Source: Alkalihalobacillus sp. AL-G (GTDB lineage Bacteria > Bacillota > Bacilli > Bacillales > Fictibacillaceae). From it: a stretch of DNA of 64,000 bases. Shown piece after piece: positions 1,468-49,972 of this stretch (positions are counted from its first letter, which is position 1; the number at the start of each line of letters is the position of its first letter). A program made the translations under genes and the position numbers. The stretch covers positions 2,294,001 through 2,358,000 of the forward strand of contig NZ_CP094656.1 of assembly GCF_030643805.1 (NCBI RefSeq), in the 5' to 3' direction. A model generated the notes under the pieces. The model was not told the origin of the DNA. It ran no database searches and worked only from the letters and a program-made list of their open reading frames with translations.

Positions 1468-2244
1468 ATGTTATTGAATAAATTTCAAACTATTCGTTTT
1501 ACTGACCAAAATGGAGACACCATATCAACCACAGATTTCCTTGGAAAGAAAACCTTGATTTTCATGTGGGCTTCCTGGTGACGTTGCCGCGAACAACTGC
1601 CTGGATGGCAGGACTTTTATGAAAAACATAAAGACAATGGATTTGAACTTCTTTCGGTAGCTGTCGACATCCAAGGGGCTGATGTTGTCAAACCTTATAC
1701 GAAAGGAACGACCTTTACGACCGTCGTCGATTCTGAAAACGTCTTGGGTAGCCTGTTTGGATTCAATATCGTTCCTAATGGGATATTTATTGATGAGAAC
1801 GGAATCATTCGTTTGATAAAACAAGGTTTTAGCATTACCGAAGAAGAACACTTGGAAGCCGTTGAAAACTTATTGAATGGAGAAGTTGAAAAAGTCGAAT
1901 TAGAAGACGCTTATTATGAACCTCAGGATTCAACCTCTGAATTGGAGGAACAGCTTGCACAAACCAAATTTAAACTTGGGATGGAATATTCAAAAAGCGG
2001 AAGGAAAGAAGAAGCATTAAAAGAACTGGATAAAGCGATCATGCTTGATTCCAATAACTTTTTAATTCGAAAGCAACGCTGGTACATTCGCTATCCGGAA
2101 AAATTTTCACCAGACATCGATACGGAATGGCAGCAAAAACAGCTGGAAAAAGAGAAGGAACAAGAGGCTCGAATGAAAGGAATCGATTGTGGCCCAGAAG
2201 GTTGTGTCATTCCTGGGACGACAAAAAATGAAGAGTCTAAATAA
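1468..2244 (+). CDS. Thioredoxin-fold selenoprotein with C-terminal TPR-like region
   Basis: One 258-residue protein, if the in-frame TGA at 1579-1581 is read as selenocysteine (U38). The start is the ATG at 1468, with AAGGAGG 7 nt upstream. Residues 1-110 are a redoxin/TlpA-like thioredoxin fold: the active site reads WASW-U-R-C-R, where relatives have WASWC, followed by the usual VPNGIFIDENG strand with the cis-proline. Residues about 140-200 look like a TPR unit (KLGMEYSKSGRKEEALKELDKAI). Near the C-terminus there is an extra thiol pair, CGPEGC (C241, C246). Upstream and downstream parts share one frame and one RBS, and no other defect is seen, which argues against a simple pseudogene. A bacterial SECIS-like hairpin follows the TGA. 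No signal peptide, so probably cytosolic. The substrate is unknown. Confidence 0.85.
1579..1611 (+). promoter_or_regulatory. UGA(Sec) codon and bacterial SECIS-like hairpin
   Basis: TGA at 1579-1581, then a 5-bp hairpin CTGCC (1597-1601), loop TGGAT, GGCAG (1607-1611). The loop starts 20 nt after the UGA and has a G at its second position. Published bSECIS models expect a loop with an early G roughly 16-37 nt downstream of the UGA. Confidence 0.7.
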
Positions 2245-15063: not shown

Positions 15064-16230
15064 ATGCTATTTGGAAAACTAAGTATTATTTTAAGTTTGG
15101 TGACCTCATTAAGTGCATCCCTTGATCATACAAATAACACTGAAAAGCCATACCCTACCTCTGTATTTCAACAGATGCATACTATGGGTTTTGATACGTC
15201 ATCAAAATATAAATTATCTACAAAAGTAAACCAAAAAATTCAACTGGAAGATACTACAATCACAATAACAGATGTATTATATGATGGAATAAACATTTAT
15301 ATTGGATATCAAACACGCCCGTACAATAAGGTTTATCATGATTATCATTTTTCGTTTAAAGTGAACGGTAAACCAATGGATGGTTTCGGATACTCAATTG
15401 ATCAACGAAAAATTAATAATTCACAGGGGGCTAACATTCTTACATTGACACCTCGAAATCCGCTTAATAGTGAGTTCGAATTGAGTTTATATTTGAATCA
15501 AAAAAACTCGAAACAAAATCTGACATCAAGCATGGTGGAATTACCGATTAAGAAAATAAAAGGGGTGAAATCATATTCGTTATCTTTAAATAAATCACTT
15601 CAAGGAAACAGATATAGCATTAAAAAGGTTGTGTTTAGCCCAATTGTTACAGCGATTATATTTGATGCGGAAATTTCAGTTCATGACCATAATAGCATTA
15701 AATATTTGCTTTTTAATAATGAAATTATGTTAAATCCTTTAGGAAGTGGAGGCGGAGGAGGGCCAGAGAAGGATGGCAAGATCGTGACCAGGAATATTGC
15801 CAGATTTGAGCCGCTCGAAAAACTTCCAAAACGTTTGGTATTTCAAGCCGTAAAAGTGCAAAATCCAAAGAATGGATCAAATAAGTTATTAGAAAAACCT
15901 TTATCAAAATTGCCATTATCATTGAAACAAGGCGAGGTAGGCTCCATAAAAGTAACTGAAATTAAAAATGGCAAAAACTATACTAAAATTTATTATGAAG
16001 TGGAGGGTAAAGAGCCCTATAAACAAGCCACTGCATTTTTCTTAAAAGATGATGCCAATCAAAAATATGATATGTTAAAACCACCTGATCGGTTAAGTGA
16101 CGACGAATATAAGTTTGTTGCAACCTTTGAACCGACTAACCAAACAGATAATTTATCAATTGTGTCCGCCCAGTTGAAAAAGCCTGTAAGCATTGATACT
16201 TTTAAAGTAGAAATTAAGTTAGAAAAGTAA
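15064..16230 (+). CDS. Secreted DUF4179/DUF5643-like protein without sigma partner
   Basis: 388 residues. A hydrophobic start (LFGKLSIILSLVTSLSASL, residues 2-20) acts as a signal peptide. The rest resembles the extracellular part of the anti-sigma factor at 11457-12827: a KLSTKVNQKIQLEDTTITITDV segment, then two beta-rich halves with a glycine run (GSGGGGG) near residue 224. The cytosolic sigma-binding part is absent and no sigma gene is adjacent. It looks like a truncated or repurposed anti-sigma ectodomain. The ATG has only a weak RBS (AAGGA, 12 nt away). Confidence 0.65.
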   Translation: MLFGKLSIILSLVTSLSASLDHTNNTEKPYPTSVFQQMHTMGFDTSSKYKLSTKVNQKIQLEDTTITITDVLYDGINIYIGYQTRPYNKVYHDYHFSFKVNGKPMDGFGYSIDQRKINNSQGANILTLTPRNPLNSEFELSLYLNQKNSKQNLTSSMVELPIKKIKGVKSYSLSLNKSLQGNRYSIKKVVFSPIVTAIIFDAEISVHDHNSIKYLLFNNEIMLNPLGSGGGGGPEKDGKIVTRNIARFEPLEKLPKRLVFQAVKVQNPKNGSNKLLEKPLSKLPLSLKQGEVGSIKVTEIKNGKNYTKIYYEVEGKEPYKQATAFFLKDDANQKYDMLKPPDRLSDDEYKFVATFEPTNQTDNLSIVSAQLKKPVSIDTFKVEIKLEK

Positions 16231-16267
16231 AGGTTTTCCTATATATGAGTAAATATTTTTTTGATTT

Positions 16268-16307
16268 ATCACTATTAGTTATTCCAGAAAAGGGCGCGAT
16301 TGTGGAA
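16268..16307 (+). repeat. Dispersed hairpin repeat, copy D
   Basis: Diverged copy: TTAGTTATTCCAGAAAAGGGCGC. The core matches the copies at 10649, 12938 and 13807. Confidence 0.4.
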
Positions 16308-16852
<545 letters not shown>

Positions 16853-43726: not shown

Positions 43727-44974
43727 CTATATAATCTTATGCTCCAGTCTTTCGATCCGTTTGATAAAGTCAACTCGTTCACGTTGCTCTTTTCCTCTTG
43801 AAATCCGACTTGTTTCCTTCCATTGCTGGTATCCTTGTTCTGCAAAGTATAACGCTTTAGTCAGGTCCTTGTAACGATGCTCATAGGCTTTCGATAGTTC
43901 AATATACGTAGATACATCTTTGGTTTGTTCGAGGGTAGCTTCCCATAAGGCGACTGCGCGGTCATACTCTTTTTCCTTCCTATAAAGAAGGGCTAATGCC
44001 TTCATCGCCTCGGTTGGCCGCGTTGATTTCGTTAGTGCTTTGTACCTTCTTTTCGCCTCGTCCACATCACCAACCGCTTCAAACCATCTTGCCACTTCAA
44101 ATTCCTCTTTTGAAGTGAGATGTGTATTACCAATATCCAATAAAATGTTCGACAGATGCGTATAAAGTGAAATTAACGTTAACACATCCAGCTCGTTATG
44201 GGTAAAGACGCCTTTTAAGATGCTAGGATCCTTTTCCCTTAAAAATTCAAAATAGAGCATCGGTGCCAAATAACCTGGAGTATCTTCTTTCCGTTCGATA
44301 TTCAGCAGTTCTTTTTCCACAACAGATAGCCGGAGTGATTCATACGACTTTTTCCAAACTCGACGCGAACCATGTAACAGATCGAAATGTCCGAACGGCG
44401 GCAGTTTCGGAACAGCGTCTCGTACAAAGGTATGTCGTGTTTTGACTTGTGGCCAATCGAACGCTTTCCCGTTATACGTAACGAGATTCTTCATTTCCTT
44501 TACATCACTTAAAAAGTGGTGGTATAGTGCGACTTCATTACCTGGACTAGGCAGAAAGTATTGACGAACCTGAATCCCCTCGCCTAGTACACGTGCCATA
44601 CCAAGTAGAAAGATCGTATTCCCAGCCCCACTTCCGAGCCCTGTTGTTTCTGTGTCAAAGAACAACAAATCCTCTGGCGTACGTTGATTCGCAGAAAGCG
44701 GATGTCGATCCTGCCGTTCATTCCACTTCTCAATCACGATCTTATAATCTTGAATCGTGTAGTGTCCCAGCTTCGTATCTGAAGCAAACCTTTTTTCACG
44801 AAGCATACAGCTTTCTTCTTCAAACGAAAGAGACCGAACATCAAACTTACTCCATTTCTCAGCATCACGATTAAGTAATTCAGGCTTTTTTGCTATCGCA
44901 GCGGAATCTCCTTTTTCTGCCCCTGTCCTCGTAATGTCCTTTTTGAATCGATTGAGTTTATTTTGGAGAGACAT
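43727..44974 (-). CDS. mrfB: MrfB (YprB), DnaQ-like 3'-5' exonuclease
   Basis: 415 residues. A ribonuclease H-like exonuclease domain occupies about 105-280: motif LLFFDTETTGLGSGAGNTIFLL gives the DxE pair, LVTYNGKAFDWPQ follows, and HNELDVLTLISL is the last acidic motif. The C-terminal 130 residues are TPR-like (ARWFEAVGDVDEAKRRYKAL). In B. subtilis MrfB acts with the MrfA helicase to remove mitomycin C adducts outside the UvrABC pathway. The coding regions overlap by 17 nt, so both are expressed together. Confidence 0.9.
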   Translation of the reverse strand: MSLQNKLNRFKKDITRTGAEKGDSAAIAKKPELLNRDAEKWSKFDVRSLSFEEESCMLREKRFASDTKLGHYTIQDYKIVIEKWNERQDRHPLSANQRTPEDLLFFDTETTGLGSGAGNTIFLLGMARVLGEGIQVRQYFLPSPGNEVALYHHFLSDVKEMKNLVTYNGKAFDWPQVKTRHTFVRDAVPKLPPFGHFDLLHGSRRVWKKSYESLRLSVVEKELLNIERKEDTPGYLAPMLYFEFLREKDPSILKGVFTHNELDVLTLISLYTHLSNILLDIGNTHLTSKEEFEVARWFEAVGDVDEAKRRYKALTKSTRPTEAMKALALLYRKEKEYDRAVALWEATLEQTKDVSTYIELSKAYEHRYKDLTKALYFAEQGYQQWKETSRISRGKEQRERVDFIKRIERLEHKII

Positions 44975-47246
44975 GATAGGTCCTCCTTTTCTGAATAAAT
45001 GAAAGCCCAGTTACTTTCACGTTCGATTCCTGAACCTCGATTCCGACACAGGATGGACACCCTTTTTCACATGGGCACTTCCCAATTACCTGCTCTGCCT
45101 CACCGAGGATCTCATCGATATGCTCATAAACGTATTCACTCAGACCAATTCCTCCAGGATAGCGGTCATAGAAAAAGAGTGTCGGCTTCTGTGAATGGGA
45201 AGCTTTCACCTGTGGAACGACATGCAAGTCGCTCACATCGCACATGACGAAAAGCGGGGCGACGTGCCGCATCACATTCGCAATCCCGATCAAGCTCTCC
45301 TCTAATTCTTGCTCGGACAGGCCTTCTGTTACTTCTTCTGAAAAACTGATCCACGCAGCTGATGTATGAAGCTCTTCTTCCGGCAATGAGATCGGACCTG
45401 ACCCGATGTTTTCATGGGTGCCGAATTTGATTTTTTTGAAAATCGTCGCCATCGCATTGACGGTTACATCTCCATAGGCGACCGTTCCATTCAGATATGT
45501 TTGATGCTTGTCCTCCTCTAAAACCTTTAAAGAAACAGCCAGATTGGCATCCGTATAGTAATCCACATCAACTTCACGAACAAAGGCTTTCTTCTCTTCA
45601 TAGTCCAACTTTTCAACCTGATACTGTGTTCCTTGATGTAAATAAATCGCTTCCTCATGGAGCAGTGTCATCGAACTGAACCGATCCATTTCGCCAATTA
45701 CACGGACATTTGCGACATCGGTTTGGTCAATGATCACTACATTTTCCTGAGATGCTGAACGTAAACTGATGTCATGAGCAGGAAAGGAATCGTTCATCCA
45801 AAACCAACGATCGCCCTGTCGGTGAAGGACCTGCTCTTCAGCCAAGTAAAATAAAATCTCATCGATATCGACGCCATCGAACCTTTCCTCTTTTCGGAAG
45901 GGCAGTTCATAGGCTGCGCATTTCAGGTGATCGACGAGTATGATCAAATTATCCGGATTGATCCGTGCGGTTTCTGGGTTGCGGTTAAAGAAATAGTCTG
46001 GGTTTTGAATGATGTATTGGTCCAATGGCGATGAACTTGCCACAAGGATAACGACAGATTCATCCTGTCGTCTCCCTGCTCTTCCGCCTTGCTGCCACGT
46101 GCTTGCAATCGAGCCGGGATAACCATTCATGATACACACCTGTAGCTGGCCGATGTCTACACCAAGCTCAAGTGCATTTGTGCTAACAACACCAATAATA
46201 TCCCCGTTCCGTAATCCTTGTTCAATTTCCCTGCGCTCCTTCGGTAAATAACCACCTCTATACCCGCGGATCGATTTATTGCCGATTTTTCGTTGAATCA
46301 ATCCTTGCAGGTAGGTCAGAAGAATCTCGACTCGTACTCTGCTTCTGGCAAAAACGATCGTTTGAACCGCATTTTCTAAAAACAGAGACGCGAGTTTTTT
46401 CGATTCAAGCGTTGAACTACGACGTACATTCAACGGTTTATTCACGACAGGAGGATTATAAAAGACAAAATGCTTTTTCCCGACCGGTGCCCCATTATTA
46501 TCAATTAACTGAACATCCTCACCGGTTAATTTTTCGGCTAGTTCTTTCGGGTTTGAGATTGTTGCGGACGTACAAATGAATGTAGGATTGCTTCCGTAGT
46601 AATTACAAATTCGTTTCAACCTTCGGATGACATTCGCAACATGACTGCCAAATACCCCCCGATACGTATGTAACTCGTCAACGACAATAAATTTAAGATT
46701 TTCGAACAGTGACACCCATTTTGTATGGTGAGGTAAGATGGCCGAGTGCAGCATATCTGGGTTGGTCATAACGATATGTCCTGCTTTCCGCACGACCTGA
46801 CGAATATTCGATGGGGTGTCTCCATCATACGTATAGCTCTTTATATCGATACCGATTTCATCAATCAGTTCATTCATCTCACTTTTCTGATCCTGAGCGA
46901 GTGCTTTTGTCGGAAAAAGATAAAGTGCACGACTGCAGTTGTTCTCTGCGATTTCTTGTAAGACAGGTAAGTTGTAGCATAACGTTTTCCCTGAAGCCGT
47001 CGGTGTAACAGCAACGAAGTTTTTCCTTTCCTTTGCCGTCCCCAATGCGGTGTGCTGGTGAGTATATAAAGAAGTGATTCCTCTTCTAACAAGTGCCTCT
47101 TTTATTTTCGGATGAACATGGTCGGGAAGATCAACTACATGCCCTTCTTTTTCGGGCAGTGTCTTCCAGTGGACAATGTTGGCTGCGACCGTCTCATCCT
47201 GATTCATGATTTTTAAAAGTTCAGCTAGGTTTTTTCGAAGTTTCAT
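44958..47246 (-). CDS. mrfA: MrfA (YprA), DEAD/DEAH helicase with cysteine cluster
   Basis: 762 residues: SF2 helicase with Walker A TPTASGKTL (about 80-88), DELHTYRG in place of the DEAH box, and the motif VI region QQGGRAGRRQ. The C-terminal MrfA domain (DUF1998) has the four-cysteine cluster CPCEKGCPSC just before the end. Acts with MrfB in repair of mitomycin-type DNA damage. A LexA-like box lies 31 nt upstream of its start. Confidence 0.93.
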   Translation of the reverse strand: MKLRKNLAELLKIMNQDETVAANIVHWKTLPEKEGHVVDLPDHVHPKIKEALVRRGITSLYTHQHTALGTAKERKNFVAVTPTASGKTLCYNLPVLQEIAENNCSRALYLFPTKALAQDQKSEMNELIDEIGIDIKSYTYDGDTPSNIRQVVRKAGHIVMTNPDMLHSAILPHHTKWVSLFENLKFIVVDELHTYRGVFGSHVANVIRRLKRICNYYGSNPTFICTSATISNPKELAEKLTGEDVQLIDNNGAPVGKKHFVFYNPPVVNKPLNVRRSSTLESKKLASLFLENAVQTIVFARSRVRVEILLTYLQGLIQRKIGNKSIRGYRGGYLPKERREIEQGLRNGDIIGVVSTNALELGVDIGQLQVCIMNGYPGSIASTWQQGGRAGRRQDESVVILVASSSPLDQYIIQNPDYFFNRNPETARINPDNLIILVDHLKCAAYELPFRKEERFDGVDIDEILFYLAEEQVLHRQGDRWFWMNDSFPAHDISLRSASQENVVIIDQTDVANVRVIGEMDRFSSMTLLHEEAIYLHQGTQYQVEKLDYEEKKAFVREVDVDYYTDANLAVSLKVLEEDKHQTYLNGTVAYGDVTVNAMATIFKKIKFGTHENIGSGPISLPEEELHTSAAWISFSEEVTEGLSEQELEESLIGIANVMRHVAPLFVMCDVSDLHVVPQVKASHSQKPTLFFYDRYPGGIGLSEYVYEHIDEILGEAEQVIGKCPCEKGCPSCVGIEVQESNVKVTGLSFIQKRRTYHVSPK

Positions 47247-47290: not shown

Positions 47291-47385
47291 TAAAGGAACC
47301 TTTTTTTATCTGATTTTCTACTTACACGTCTAATTCATAAAAAACATATAATGCAAAATAAAGCTGCAAGGACAGGTGAGCGTTG

Positions 47386-48006
47386 ATGCACAACCGACAT
47401 ATTCTCAAAACCGTAGAAGAAATGATAACCTGTACTGATACATTTCGTGCCACGATCGGTGATACAGCTCCTCTCTTTCAAACAGCTGCAGTCATTGATT
47501 CCGAAATAAAACCGATCAAGTTGGAGGATTACCTCGGAAAATGGACCGTGCTTTTCTTTTACCCGAGTGATTTTACATTTGTCTGACCGACTGAACTTGC
47601 GGCGGTCGCTGCTGTTTATTCTGATTTGCAGAAGATGAACACAGAAGTTCTAGCAATCAGTACCGATAGTGTCTATTCTCACAAAGTGTATTTGGAAACG
47701 TCGAAAAAGTTAAAGCAAGTAAAGTTTCCGGTCGTCAGTGATCGAAACCAACTGATCAGTAGAGCGTATCAAGTACTGGATTGCTCAGTAGGCGCTTCAT
47801 TTCGTGCTACGGTTGTCATCGATCCGGAAGGGGTTATTGTCTGTAAAACGGTATATCCGAATGATGTCGGCCGGAATATAGACGAATTATTACGTTTGGT
47901 TCAGGCCATACGTTATTCAAGACAACATAAAAAAGCGACCCCTGCCCACTGGGAGCCGGGTGACGAGGGAATCCGACGGGATCAAAATCGAATAGGGAGC
48001 GAGTGA
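47386..48006 (+). CDS. Selenocysteine-containing peroxiredoxin (AhpC/Prx family)
   Basis: 206 residues if the in-frame TGA at 47584-47586 is selenocysteine (U67). The start ATG lies 6 nt after AGGTGA; a TTG directly before it is also in frame. The protein is a typical AhpC/TSA peroxiredoxin: [13 protein letters not shown], the [19 protein letters not shown] active site where U replaces the peroxidatic cysteine, [12 protein letters not shown], the conserved [12 protein letters not shown] strand and a C-terminal [11 protein letters not shown] tail. Relatives have a resolving cysteine in the VCP before that tail; here it reads ATP, so the enzyme probably uses an external thiol or a 1-Cys-like mechanism. 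It reduces hydrogen peroxide or organic peroxides. A SECIS-like hairpin follows the TGA and a 12-bp terminator closes the gene. Confidence 0.88.
47584..47612 (+). promoter_or_regulatory. UGA(Sec) codon and bacterial SECIS-like hairpin
   Basis: TGA at 47584-47586, hairpin GCGGC (47599-47603), loop GGTC, GCTGC (47608-47612; one G-U pair). The loop begins 18 nt after the UGA. GGUC is part of the loop that SelB recognises in the E. coli fdhF element. Confidence 0.78.
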
Positions 48007-48019
48007 GAATATTTATAGA

Positions 48020-48055
48020 ACGGGGCTGACTAATTTTAAGTCAGCCCCGTATTTT
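48020..48055. terminator. Bidirectional terminator between the peroxiredoxin gene and yyaL
   Basis: ACGGGGCTGACT pairs perfectly with AGTCAGCCCCGT (12 bp), followed by a T-rich stretch. Confidence 0.92.
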
Positions 48056-48067
48056 ATATTAGATCGG

Positions 48068-49972
48068 CTATATAAGCTTTGTTAATATGGAATCCAAGTC
48101 TGTGGTTGGGCGTTCACAATGGAAATTTTCACAAAAATACACAGTTGGTTTGTCATCAATCTGTTCGTATTCATTTGCAAAGGACGCTAAAGATGCGAGA
48201 TTTAGTCCAGAATTAGATGATAGTACCGTAACTTCTGGTAAAAAACGCTCGTGAAGTTTCTTTAAAAATGTTTGGACTTCCGGATCCTCGGATAAGCCCA
48301 ACACCACAACTTCCTTACCTTTTAAATGGGTTAACAAAAATGCTTCAAGTAAGTGGGCAGAGCCATTCGGATAGTGAGAGACTTCCCCTGAAAATACGTT
48401 GAACAACTTGTTTAAAAGCTCCTCGAAACGGGTTTCTCCCGTCAATTTGGCGAGTCTCCATAGCTGGTTGGCTGCAACACTATTCCCTGAGGGAGTCGCA
48501 CCGTCATATAGTTCCTTTGGTCGAAGGATGAGCTGCTCAGAATCATGTCCAGAAAGGTAAAAGCCACCACCTTCTTTGTCCCAGAACAATTCGATCATCT
48601 CCTCGGTAAGCTGCTTTGCCTTCCCGAGATAGTCAAGTTCATATGTTGTTTCGTATAGCTCAATGGACGCCCATAGCAGGTTCGCATAATCGTCGAGGTA
48701 ACCATTGTATGCCGTTTCACCATCTCTGAACCGTGCCTGTAACCGACCTTCAATCACCATGTTTTCATTGATAAATCGATAGGACCGCTTAGCCATTACA
48801 GTGTAATCAGCATTATTGAAAACGCGCCCTGCCTTTGCGAGAGCGGCAATCATATACCCGTTCCACGAGGTCAGAATTTTATCGTCTTTGTGTGGGTGGA
48901 TGCGTTCGTCACGGATTTGAAACAACTGTCGCTTCGCTTCCTCCATATTCACTAGAAGCGCGTCAACAGATAGTCCTTCTTCCTCTGCAATATTTTCAAC
49001 TCTTGCATGAATCAGGTTCGGTATGTTGTTCCCTTCAAAGTTTCCTTTTTCCGTTATATCGTATACCTGACAGAACAAATCACCCTTTTTTTCACCGAGA
49101 TGTACAATGATCTCTTTAGGATTCCAAACGTAAAACTTACCTTCCATGCCTTCCGAGTCGGCATCCTCTGCACTATAAAAACCACCGAGAGGGTCAGTCA
49201 TGTCGCGCTCAACATATTCAAAAATTTCCTGTACAACCGTTTTGTACCTCTCGTTTTTCGTGACCGTGAAAGCATCAATATAGGCATTGGCGAGCAGGGC
49301 ATTATCATACAGCATCTTTTCAAAATGCGGTACCAACCATTCCTGATCAACGGAATAACGGGCAAATCCGCCTCCCAAATGGTCATAGATCCCGCCTTTA
49401 GCCATCGAATCAAGCGTTGTTGTCACATAGTTGAGGGCTTGCTTTTCCCCGGTCCACCTGTGATACTTTAGTAAAAACGTTAGTAAATGAGGCGTCGGGA
49501 ATTTAGGAGCCTGACCGAAACCACCATAGATCGTATCGAATGTTCTACTTAATTGGTTGTAGCATCGATGAAGCACTTTTTCCTCTAGCTGTTCACCTTG
49601 CTCTGCTCGAACTTTTTCCTGAAGCGAGTTAGTAATTTTATCACCGATATTTTGGATTTTCTCAGGATTCTCTATGTATTGATCATATAGCTGTGTAATG
49701 ACGTCCTTGAAACCAGGCTGTCCATATCGGCCCTCTTTCGGAAAATAGACCCCGCCGTAAAATGGCTTTTGGTTAGGTGTCAGAAAAACATGCAGCGGCC
49801 AACCACCTTGACCAGTGAGACCCTGTACGACCTTCATATAAATATGGTCAATATCTGGACGTTCTTCCCGATCGACTTTGATGGATACGAAACGATCATT
49901 TAATAGCTCTGCAACCTCTTCGTCAGCGAACGATTCCCTGTGCATAACATGGCACCAATGGCAAGTACTCAT
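48068..49972 (-). CDS. yyaL: YyaL (DUF255, thioredoxin-like plus glycosidase-like), main 3' part
   Basis: 634 codons from an ATG that precedes AGT-ACT-TGC, encoding STCHWCHVMHRESFADEEVA. This is the thioredoxin-like DUF255 domain starting at its active site CHWC, followed by a long (alpha/alpha)6 barrel region (GGFGQAPKFPTPHLLTF and GGIYDHLGGGFARYSVDQEW). Full YyaL proteins have about 690 residues. The first 56 lie in a separate frame (50178-50011) cut off by a TAG. Joining the parts without the 44-nt gap gives 688 residues. The ATG has AAAGG 6 nt upstream, so independent reinitiation is possible. Function: unknown, thioredoxin-like. Confidence 0.8.
   Translation of the reverse strand: MSTCHWCHVMHRESFADEEVAELLNDRFVSIKVDREERPDIDHIYMKVVQGLTGQGGWPLHVFLTPNQKPFYGGVYFPKEGRYGQPGFKDVITQLYDQYIENPEKIQNIGDKITNSLQEKVRAEQGEQLEEKVLHRCYNQLSRTFDTIYGGFGQAPKFPTPHLLTFLLKYHRWTGEKQALNYVTTTLDSMAKGGIYDHLGGGFARYSVDQEWLVPHFEKMLYDNALLANAYIDAFTVTKNERYKTVVQEIFEYVERDMTDPLGGFYSAEDADSEGMEGKFYVWNPKEIIVHLGEKKGDLFCQVYDITEKGNFEGNNIPNLIHARVENIAEEEGLSVDALLVNMEEAKRQLFQIRDERIHPHKDDKILTSWNGYMIAALAKAGRVFNNADYTVMAKRSYRFINENMVIEGRLQARFRDGETAYNGYLDDYANLLWASIELYETTYELDYLGKAKQLTEEMIELFWDKEGGGFYLSGHDSEQLILRPKELYDGATPSGNSVAANQLWRLAKLTGETRFEELLNKLFNVFSGEVSHYPNGSAHLLEAFLLTHLKGKEVVVLGLSEDPEVQTFLKKLHERFLPEVTVLSSNSGLNLASLASFANEYEQIDDKPTVYFCENFHCERPTTDLDSILTKLI

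Follow-up and report, generated by a model that had tools for sequence, protein, structure and literature searches.

The closest described family is PrxU (NCBIfam model NF040737), which we take to be linked to the selenocysteine peroxiredoxin of Eubacterium acidaminophilum (Sohling et al. 2001). In the excerpts available, peroxiredoxins that carry selenocysteine (Sec) in a TxxU motif are treated as an accepted selenoprotein family (PMC13188914, PMC1088965), and a Sec-containing PrxU was reported to be up-regulated in Sulfobacillus thermotolerans (PMC7409299). Animal Sec glutathione peroxidases belong to another protein family and thus offer a parallel, not kinship. For these enzymes, an available excerpt states that the exchange of Cys for Sec removed the need for a resolving Cys, which was later lost (PMC8614756). 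The literature titles, abstract starts and passages covered here contain no statement that Sec peroxiredoxins lack a resolving Cys; the 2001 description of PrxU lies outside this scope, and the point may be in print.

The peroxiredoxin locus and its relation to described families

The window, i.e. the whole stretch of 64,000 nucleotides that was analyzed, covers positions 2294001-2358000 of one 4.16-Mb contig. An RNase P of class B and, in the genome, BshC are present, which would suit a Bacillus-like bacterium and a Bacillales-like order. The following features define the locus and its surroundings.

47386..48006, plus strand: gene for a predicted Sec-containing AhpC/Prx1-type peroxiredoxin of 206 amino acids with Sec67; its stop codon is the TGA at 48004-48006
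47374..47380, plus strand: putative ribosome binding site AGGTGAG ahead of the ATG at 47386, read by eye and identical in locus L010
47584..47586, plus strand: in-frame TGA, codon 67 of the open reading frame, predicted to encode Sec67 at the peroxidatic position (FTFVUPTEL)
47938..47940, plus strand: T185 (in ATP) at the resolving-Cys place (VCP) of Cys-type relatives, aligned with the C of VCP in 4fh8
48020..48050, plus strand: intrinsic terminator-like hairpin 3' of the peroxiredoxin gene, 12 pairs and a T-rich tail
44958-47246, minus strand: helicase gene on one flank of the peroxiredoxin gene
43727-44974, minus strand: RNase H-like gene, on the same flank as the helicase gene
48068-49972, minus strand: DUF255 gene on the other flank

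With the TGA read through, the product of 47386-48006 is an AhpC/TSA protein with a 1-cysPrx_C stretch. Its gene stands alone between the helicase and RNase H-like genes on one side and the DUF255 gene on the other. Analysis of the neighboring genes across 26 loci (approximately 1.5 kb) revealed no ORF family common to more than 6 of the 26 and no conserved candidate for a reductant. A common regulator is not indicated, as PerR and SigB motifs and a short Spx-like motif were not enriched upstream of 37 genes in comparison with resampled sequences. Structure prediction for the window protein as a single sequence yielded a mean pLDDT of 37 and was not used. The neighboring DUF255 ORF starts only at position 47 of the 163 profile positions and has same-frame stops upstream, which indicates that its N-terminus is missing or out of frame.

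The window protein and the PrxU rows that were read are AhpC-type proteins with a peroxidatic Sec and without a C-terminal resolving Cys, and many of these rows have the hairpin that follows the TGA at an equal distance. The PrxU model is also the best match of the window protein. However, its score of 177.8 bits stays below the cut-off of 270, and four members of its tree clade miss the cut-off as well (164.8-191.0 bits; C was written for U in the query letters of the window protein and of these members). Scores above the cut-off (333.5-398.5 bits) were obtained for five Sec rows of the other clade. The Cys copy of genome G601, described below, gave no match to this model at E 1e-40. Trees place the two groups apart, and one common origin is not rejected.

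With AhpC and the typical 2-Cys peroxiredoxins of the Prx1 type, the window protein shares the AhpC-TSA domain, the peroxidatic motif PxxxTxxC/U and the active-site stretch FFYPxDFTFV. The earlier note had placed the TGA at 47584 exactly at the peroxidatic position, and the alignments agree: Sec67 falls on the peroxidatic Cys of 2-Cys peroxiredoxins with solved structures and on the TGA in the other 25 members of a first set of 26 sequences. The window protein differs from the 2-Cys type in having Sec for Cys and in being without the C-terminal resolving Cys. Here the usual VCP does read ATP, as the same note had stated, and T185 stands opposite the C of VCP in 4fh8. This absence of a Cys at the VCP place is what the protein has in common with the Prx6-type 1-Cys enzymes. 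It differs from these in using Sec and in belonging to a clade that retains Tyr59 as well as FTFVUPTE; the corresponding stretch of the Prx6-like rows is SHPADFTPVCTTE. The active-site His and the motif PVCTTE, which we take to be the Prx6 motif, are not found; Tyr59 is invariant in the 26 sequences, and its place is occupied by His in the Prx6-like rows (by eye). An active-site His was reported to trap oxidised Prx6 in the excerpt available (PMC12697902).

Absence of the resolving cysteine is a trait of the group

The gene had been described in the earlier note as having lost its resolving Cys, and a comparison with Cys homologues had been suggested. This comparison comprised 152 rows, and the resolving Cys is present in 0 of 108 Sec rows and in 40 of 44 Cys rows; the latter were best-scoring or hand-picked, so that their fraction with the residue cannot be carried over to Cys peroxiredoxins in general. 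The rows were drawn from at most 30 loci for each search and from a further 80 regions chosen by place, and do not cover all matches. Left out of the 152 were L035, which runs on past its stop and represents the gene of L137, L131 without a readable frame, L182 with a broken frame, the weak named relative L046, and further loci of genes that were already included. With the resolving Cys absent in all 108 Sec rows, a loss in this single gene is not borne out. Judged from the aligned rows, the absence is a trait of the group and extends to rows of the described PrxU family. Among the Cys rows, four are without a resolving Cys: L126, L129 and L134, which are Prx6-like by motif, and L181, the copy of G601.

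A tree of 78 rows, calculated without the two columns that define the traits, requires three changes of the Sec label and two changes of the resolving Cys; these numbers are also those of an earlier, quick tree with 80 rows. In the free trees, the Sec rows appear in two places, and a tree that holds all Sec rows of the 78-row set and L181 together was not rejected (AU p 0.31). The trees may therefore be compatible with one origin of Sec or with two. As a single origin is not rejected, the coupling of Sec with the missing resolving Cys may rest on one event.

We consider it rather unlikely that the resolving Cys was lost without any link to selenium, as would be the case if, for instance, a 1-Cys ancestor had acquired Sec at a later time. 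Such a sequence of events can draw on the existence of Cys peroxiredoxins without a resolving Cys, namely the three Prx6-like rows and L181 within the Sec clade, and the two changes of the resolving Cys in the trees are too few to show an order. However, a long branch separates the two Prx6-like rows included in the tree (L126 and L134) from the Sec clades, and the resolving Cys is retained in each of the 14 Cys rows placed beside one Sec clade. L181 itself (positions 313-930 of its locus) is nested within the Sec clade, and its genome has no SelB over the cut-off; it thus reads as a reversal from Sec to Cys. Its Cys codon is TGT, the place of the loop has neither GGTC nor AGTT, and with this hairpin loop gone the resolving Cys has not been regained. 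Neither G601 nor G058, a genome of the same genus, has SelB over the cut-off.

Other cysteine residues

The window protein contains three further Cys residues, which the earlier note had considered as possible substitutes for the resolving Cys.

47431..47433, plus strand: C16; Cys in 14 of 26 sequences at its column
47782..47784, plus strand: C133; in this protein only (1 of 26)
47842..47844, plus strand: C153; in this protein only (1 of 26)

All three residues are present. As substitutes, C133 and C153 fall away, being found once each among the 26 sequences, and C16 is not required group-wide. A second N-terminal column holds Cys in 23 of 26 sequences (PFCA motif). This frequency, together with an N-terminal CQRP or similar motif in many Sec rows elsewhere in the phylum, gives some weight to a resolution of Sec67 within the protein, by C16 of the same or a neighboring subunit, in a 2-Cys-like cycle that is reduced by thioredoxin. 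Such a cycle nevertheless appears improbable. The position of the N-terminal Cys is not fixed, and the window protein has R21 where the 23 sequences have Cys. Furthermore, L013 and L022 of the 26 contain no Cys besides Sec, and in total the same applies to 7 of the 108 Sec rows, of which L057, L060 and L193 are perhaps cut or mis-started. In the Cys-free rows L013, L022 and L104, at most six more codons lie upstream before a stop, and the start of L164 is that of L013. These Sec rows without another Cys indicate that an internal selenosulfide is not needed in every member. A Cys-free row means that the protein concerned has no need of internal resolution and says nothing on C16 being idle in the protein of the window.

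Distribution of the gene and predicted decoding of the TGA

A copy of the clade was identified in 26 of 120 genomes, the genome of the window included, and all 26 copies have TGA at the same codon. A sample of the order with 397 genomes yielded 54 clade copies, of which 52 are listed with one in-frame TGA, one contains Cys (G601) and one is frame-broken (G767). Fifty of the 52 single-TGA copies were read (G700 and G795 were left out), and all of these have the TGA at the site. The order sample contained eight further matches without TGA, and the three that were read (L036, L037 and L196) are AhpC-like with a resolving Cys. The frame-broken copy (L182) has kept its TGA, in a genome with SelB, and is evidence that gene decay does occur in the clade. 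Even with this copy in mind, the TGA has practically no chance of being an error in the sequence or a nonsense mutation of a once-Cys gene in decay, and both readings were rejected, since the TGA is conserved across relatives (at the same codon in 26 of 26 and 52 of 54 copies), as are the protein on both sides and the hairpin.

The search for selB and selC proposed in the earlier note revealed a complete Sec machinery in the genome of the window. It includes a tRNA-Sec with UCA anticodon, SelB (354 bits; cut-off 242), SelA, SelD and the tRNA selenouridine synthase MnmH. The SelD gene itself has an in-frame TGA.

15409-16467 of locus L047 (same genome), minus strand: SelD gene with an in-frame TGA in GGUGCK

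Selenophosphate synthesis thus seems to depend on Sec decoding itself. SelB over the cut-off was found in all 26 carriers of the peroxiredoxin gene versus 75 of the 120 genomes overall (hypergeometric P 6.6e-7, relatedness ignored). The gene is optional, as 49 of the 75 genomes with SelB are without it. Because of the TGA and SelB in 26 of 26 carriers, the Sec machinery and the constrained hairpin codons described below, the window gene very likely encodes a real selenoprotein, and decoding in the cell is predicted accordingly from the sequences.

The hairpin downstream of the TGA

A hairpin with a GGTC loop had been noticed after the TGA, and this element was recovered in the analysis.

47599..47612, plus strand: SECIS-like hairpin GCGGC-GGTC-GCTGC; the loop, 47604-47607, lies 17 nt after the TGA

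We take its loop to resemble that of the E. coli fdhF hairpin. Six consensus pairs are kept across the 26 sequences with three failing cells, all of them in the outermost pair, and two of the six pairs have changed on both sides. Five fourfold-degenerate codons within the hairpin have an entropy of 0.50-0.92 bits (56 rows), versus 1.35-1.97 bits for six other conserved fourfold codons nearby in the same number of rows (Thr -3, Val -1, Pro +1, Thr +2, Thr +26 and Val +29). A hairpin that follows the UGA and is kept by selection, as expected of a selenoprotein decoded by SelB, is thus present. Folding of 25 nt of the window hairpin gave a z of -1.63, with the best fold slid to a 3-base loop, and 57 nt of the region gave a z of -2.14, with other bases paired in the best fold. 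The slid variant with the 3-base loop was also the top result of a hairpin scan on the window sequence. The evidence for the hairpin is its conservation and not its energy, as the energy calculated for the window sequence by itself is a weak argument. No SECIS family of Rfam was detected in the window at the gathering score.

The four bases 17 nt after the TGA were compared between Sec rows with and without the residues LAAVAA at this place. The 65 LAAVAA rows have GGTC (52), AGTT (10) or CGTG (3), and the 43 Sec rows with other residues have AGTT (23), GGTC (5), CGTG (3) or other bases (12). For Sec rows without LAAVAA, where it was printed, the best hairpin lies slightly farther downstream. 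As a side observation, the AGTT loop differs from GGTC by two bases that change together (L012, L013, L161, L164, L167, L183, L184 and L188). It is spread over several families of the order and is commonest in the Sec rows with other residues at this place.

Proposed catalytic cycle and reductant

We consider it probable, on the strength of the sequence comparisons, that Sec67 is decoded by SelB and tRNA-Sec and acts in a 1-Sec cycle that is reset by an outside thiol. The hairpin 17 nt further on would direct SelB and tRNA-Sec to insert selenocysteine at UGA 67. Peroxide would oxidise the selenolate to a selenenic acid, which an outside thiol would attack directly to form a mixed selenosulfide, with no need for a protein Cys. 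A second thiol or a redoxin would then free the reduced enzyme. As the absence of the resolving Cys is a trait of the whole group, the enzyme is probably recharged by such an outside partner, and a different reduction partner is predicted as likely.

In the order of the window, the first thiol would most likely be bacillithiol with bacilliredoxin, or thioredoxin; carriers elsewhere in the phylum without BshC would use thioredoxin or another thiol. Within the order, all 27 carriers tested, among them the Cys carrier G601, have BshC, versus 8 of 28 carriers outside it. With this distribution, bacillithiol cannot serve as reductant throughout the family but could do so here. The PrxU family is named thioredoxin-dependent in NCBIfam.

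By analogy with the glutathione peroxidases, Sec may have removed the need for a resolving Cys in these peroxiredoxins as well. A more general rule is put forward tentatively: in AhpC/Prx1-type enzymes, Sec and the resolving Cys would be mutually exclusive, Sec would hand reduction over to a small thiol (bacillithiol in the order), and loss of SelB would leave a 1-Cys enzyme in which the resolving Cys is not readily restored, as in G601. The occurrence of the clade in 54 of 397 genomes of the order and the lack of any Sec row with a resolving Cys allow a clear test of whether selenium removes the need for this residue. The natural Cys copy of G601, a genome without SelB, provides a ready comparison enzyme, and the physiological reductant could be settled.

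A second selenoprotein candidate is encoded in the window.

1468-2244, plus strand: ResA/TlpA-like selenoprotein candidate with TGA at 1579, the motif WASWURC and a long C-terminal part

Its match to NF041054 is far below the cut-off. Full-length matches with TGA, counted from the listing, occur at 15 loci in 14 of the 120 genomes, and five of these 15 loci list further stops in the match. Nine of the genomes have the Sec peroxiredoxin and five are without it, and 17 of the 26 genomes with the Sec peroxiredoxin lack the candidate. Going by this distribution, the Sec peroxiredoxin does not have the selenoprotein at 1468 as a constant partner.
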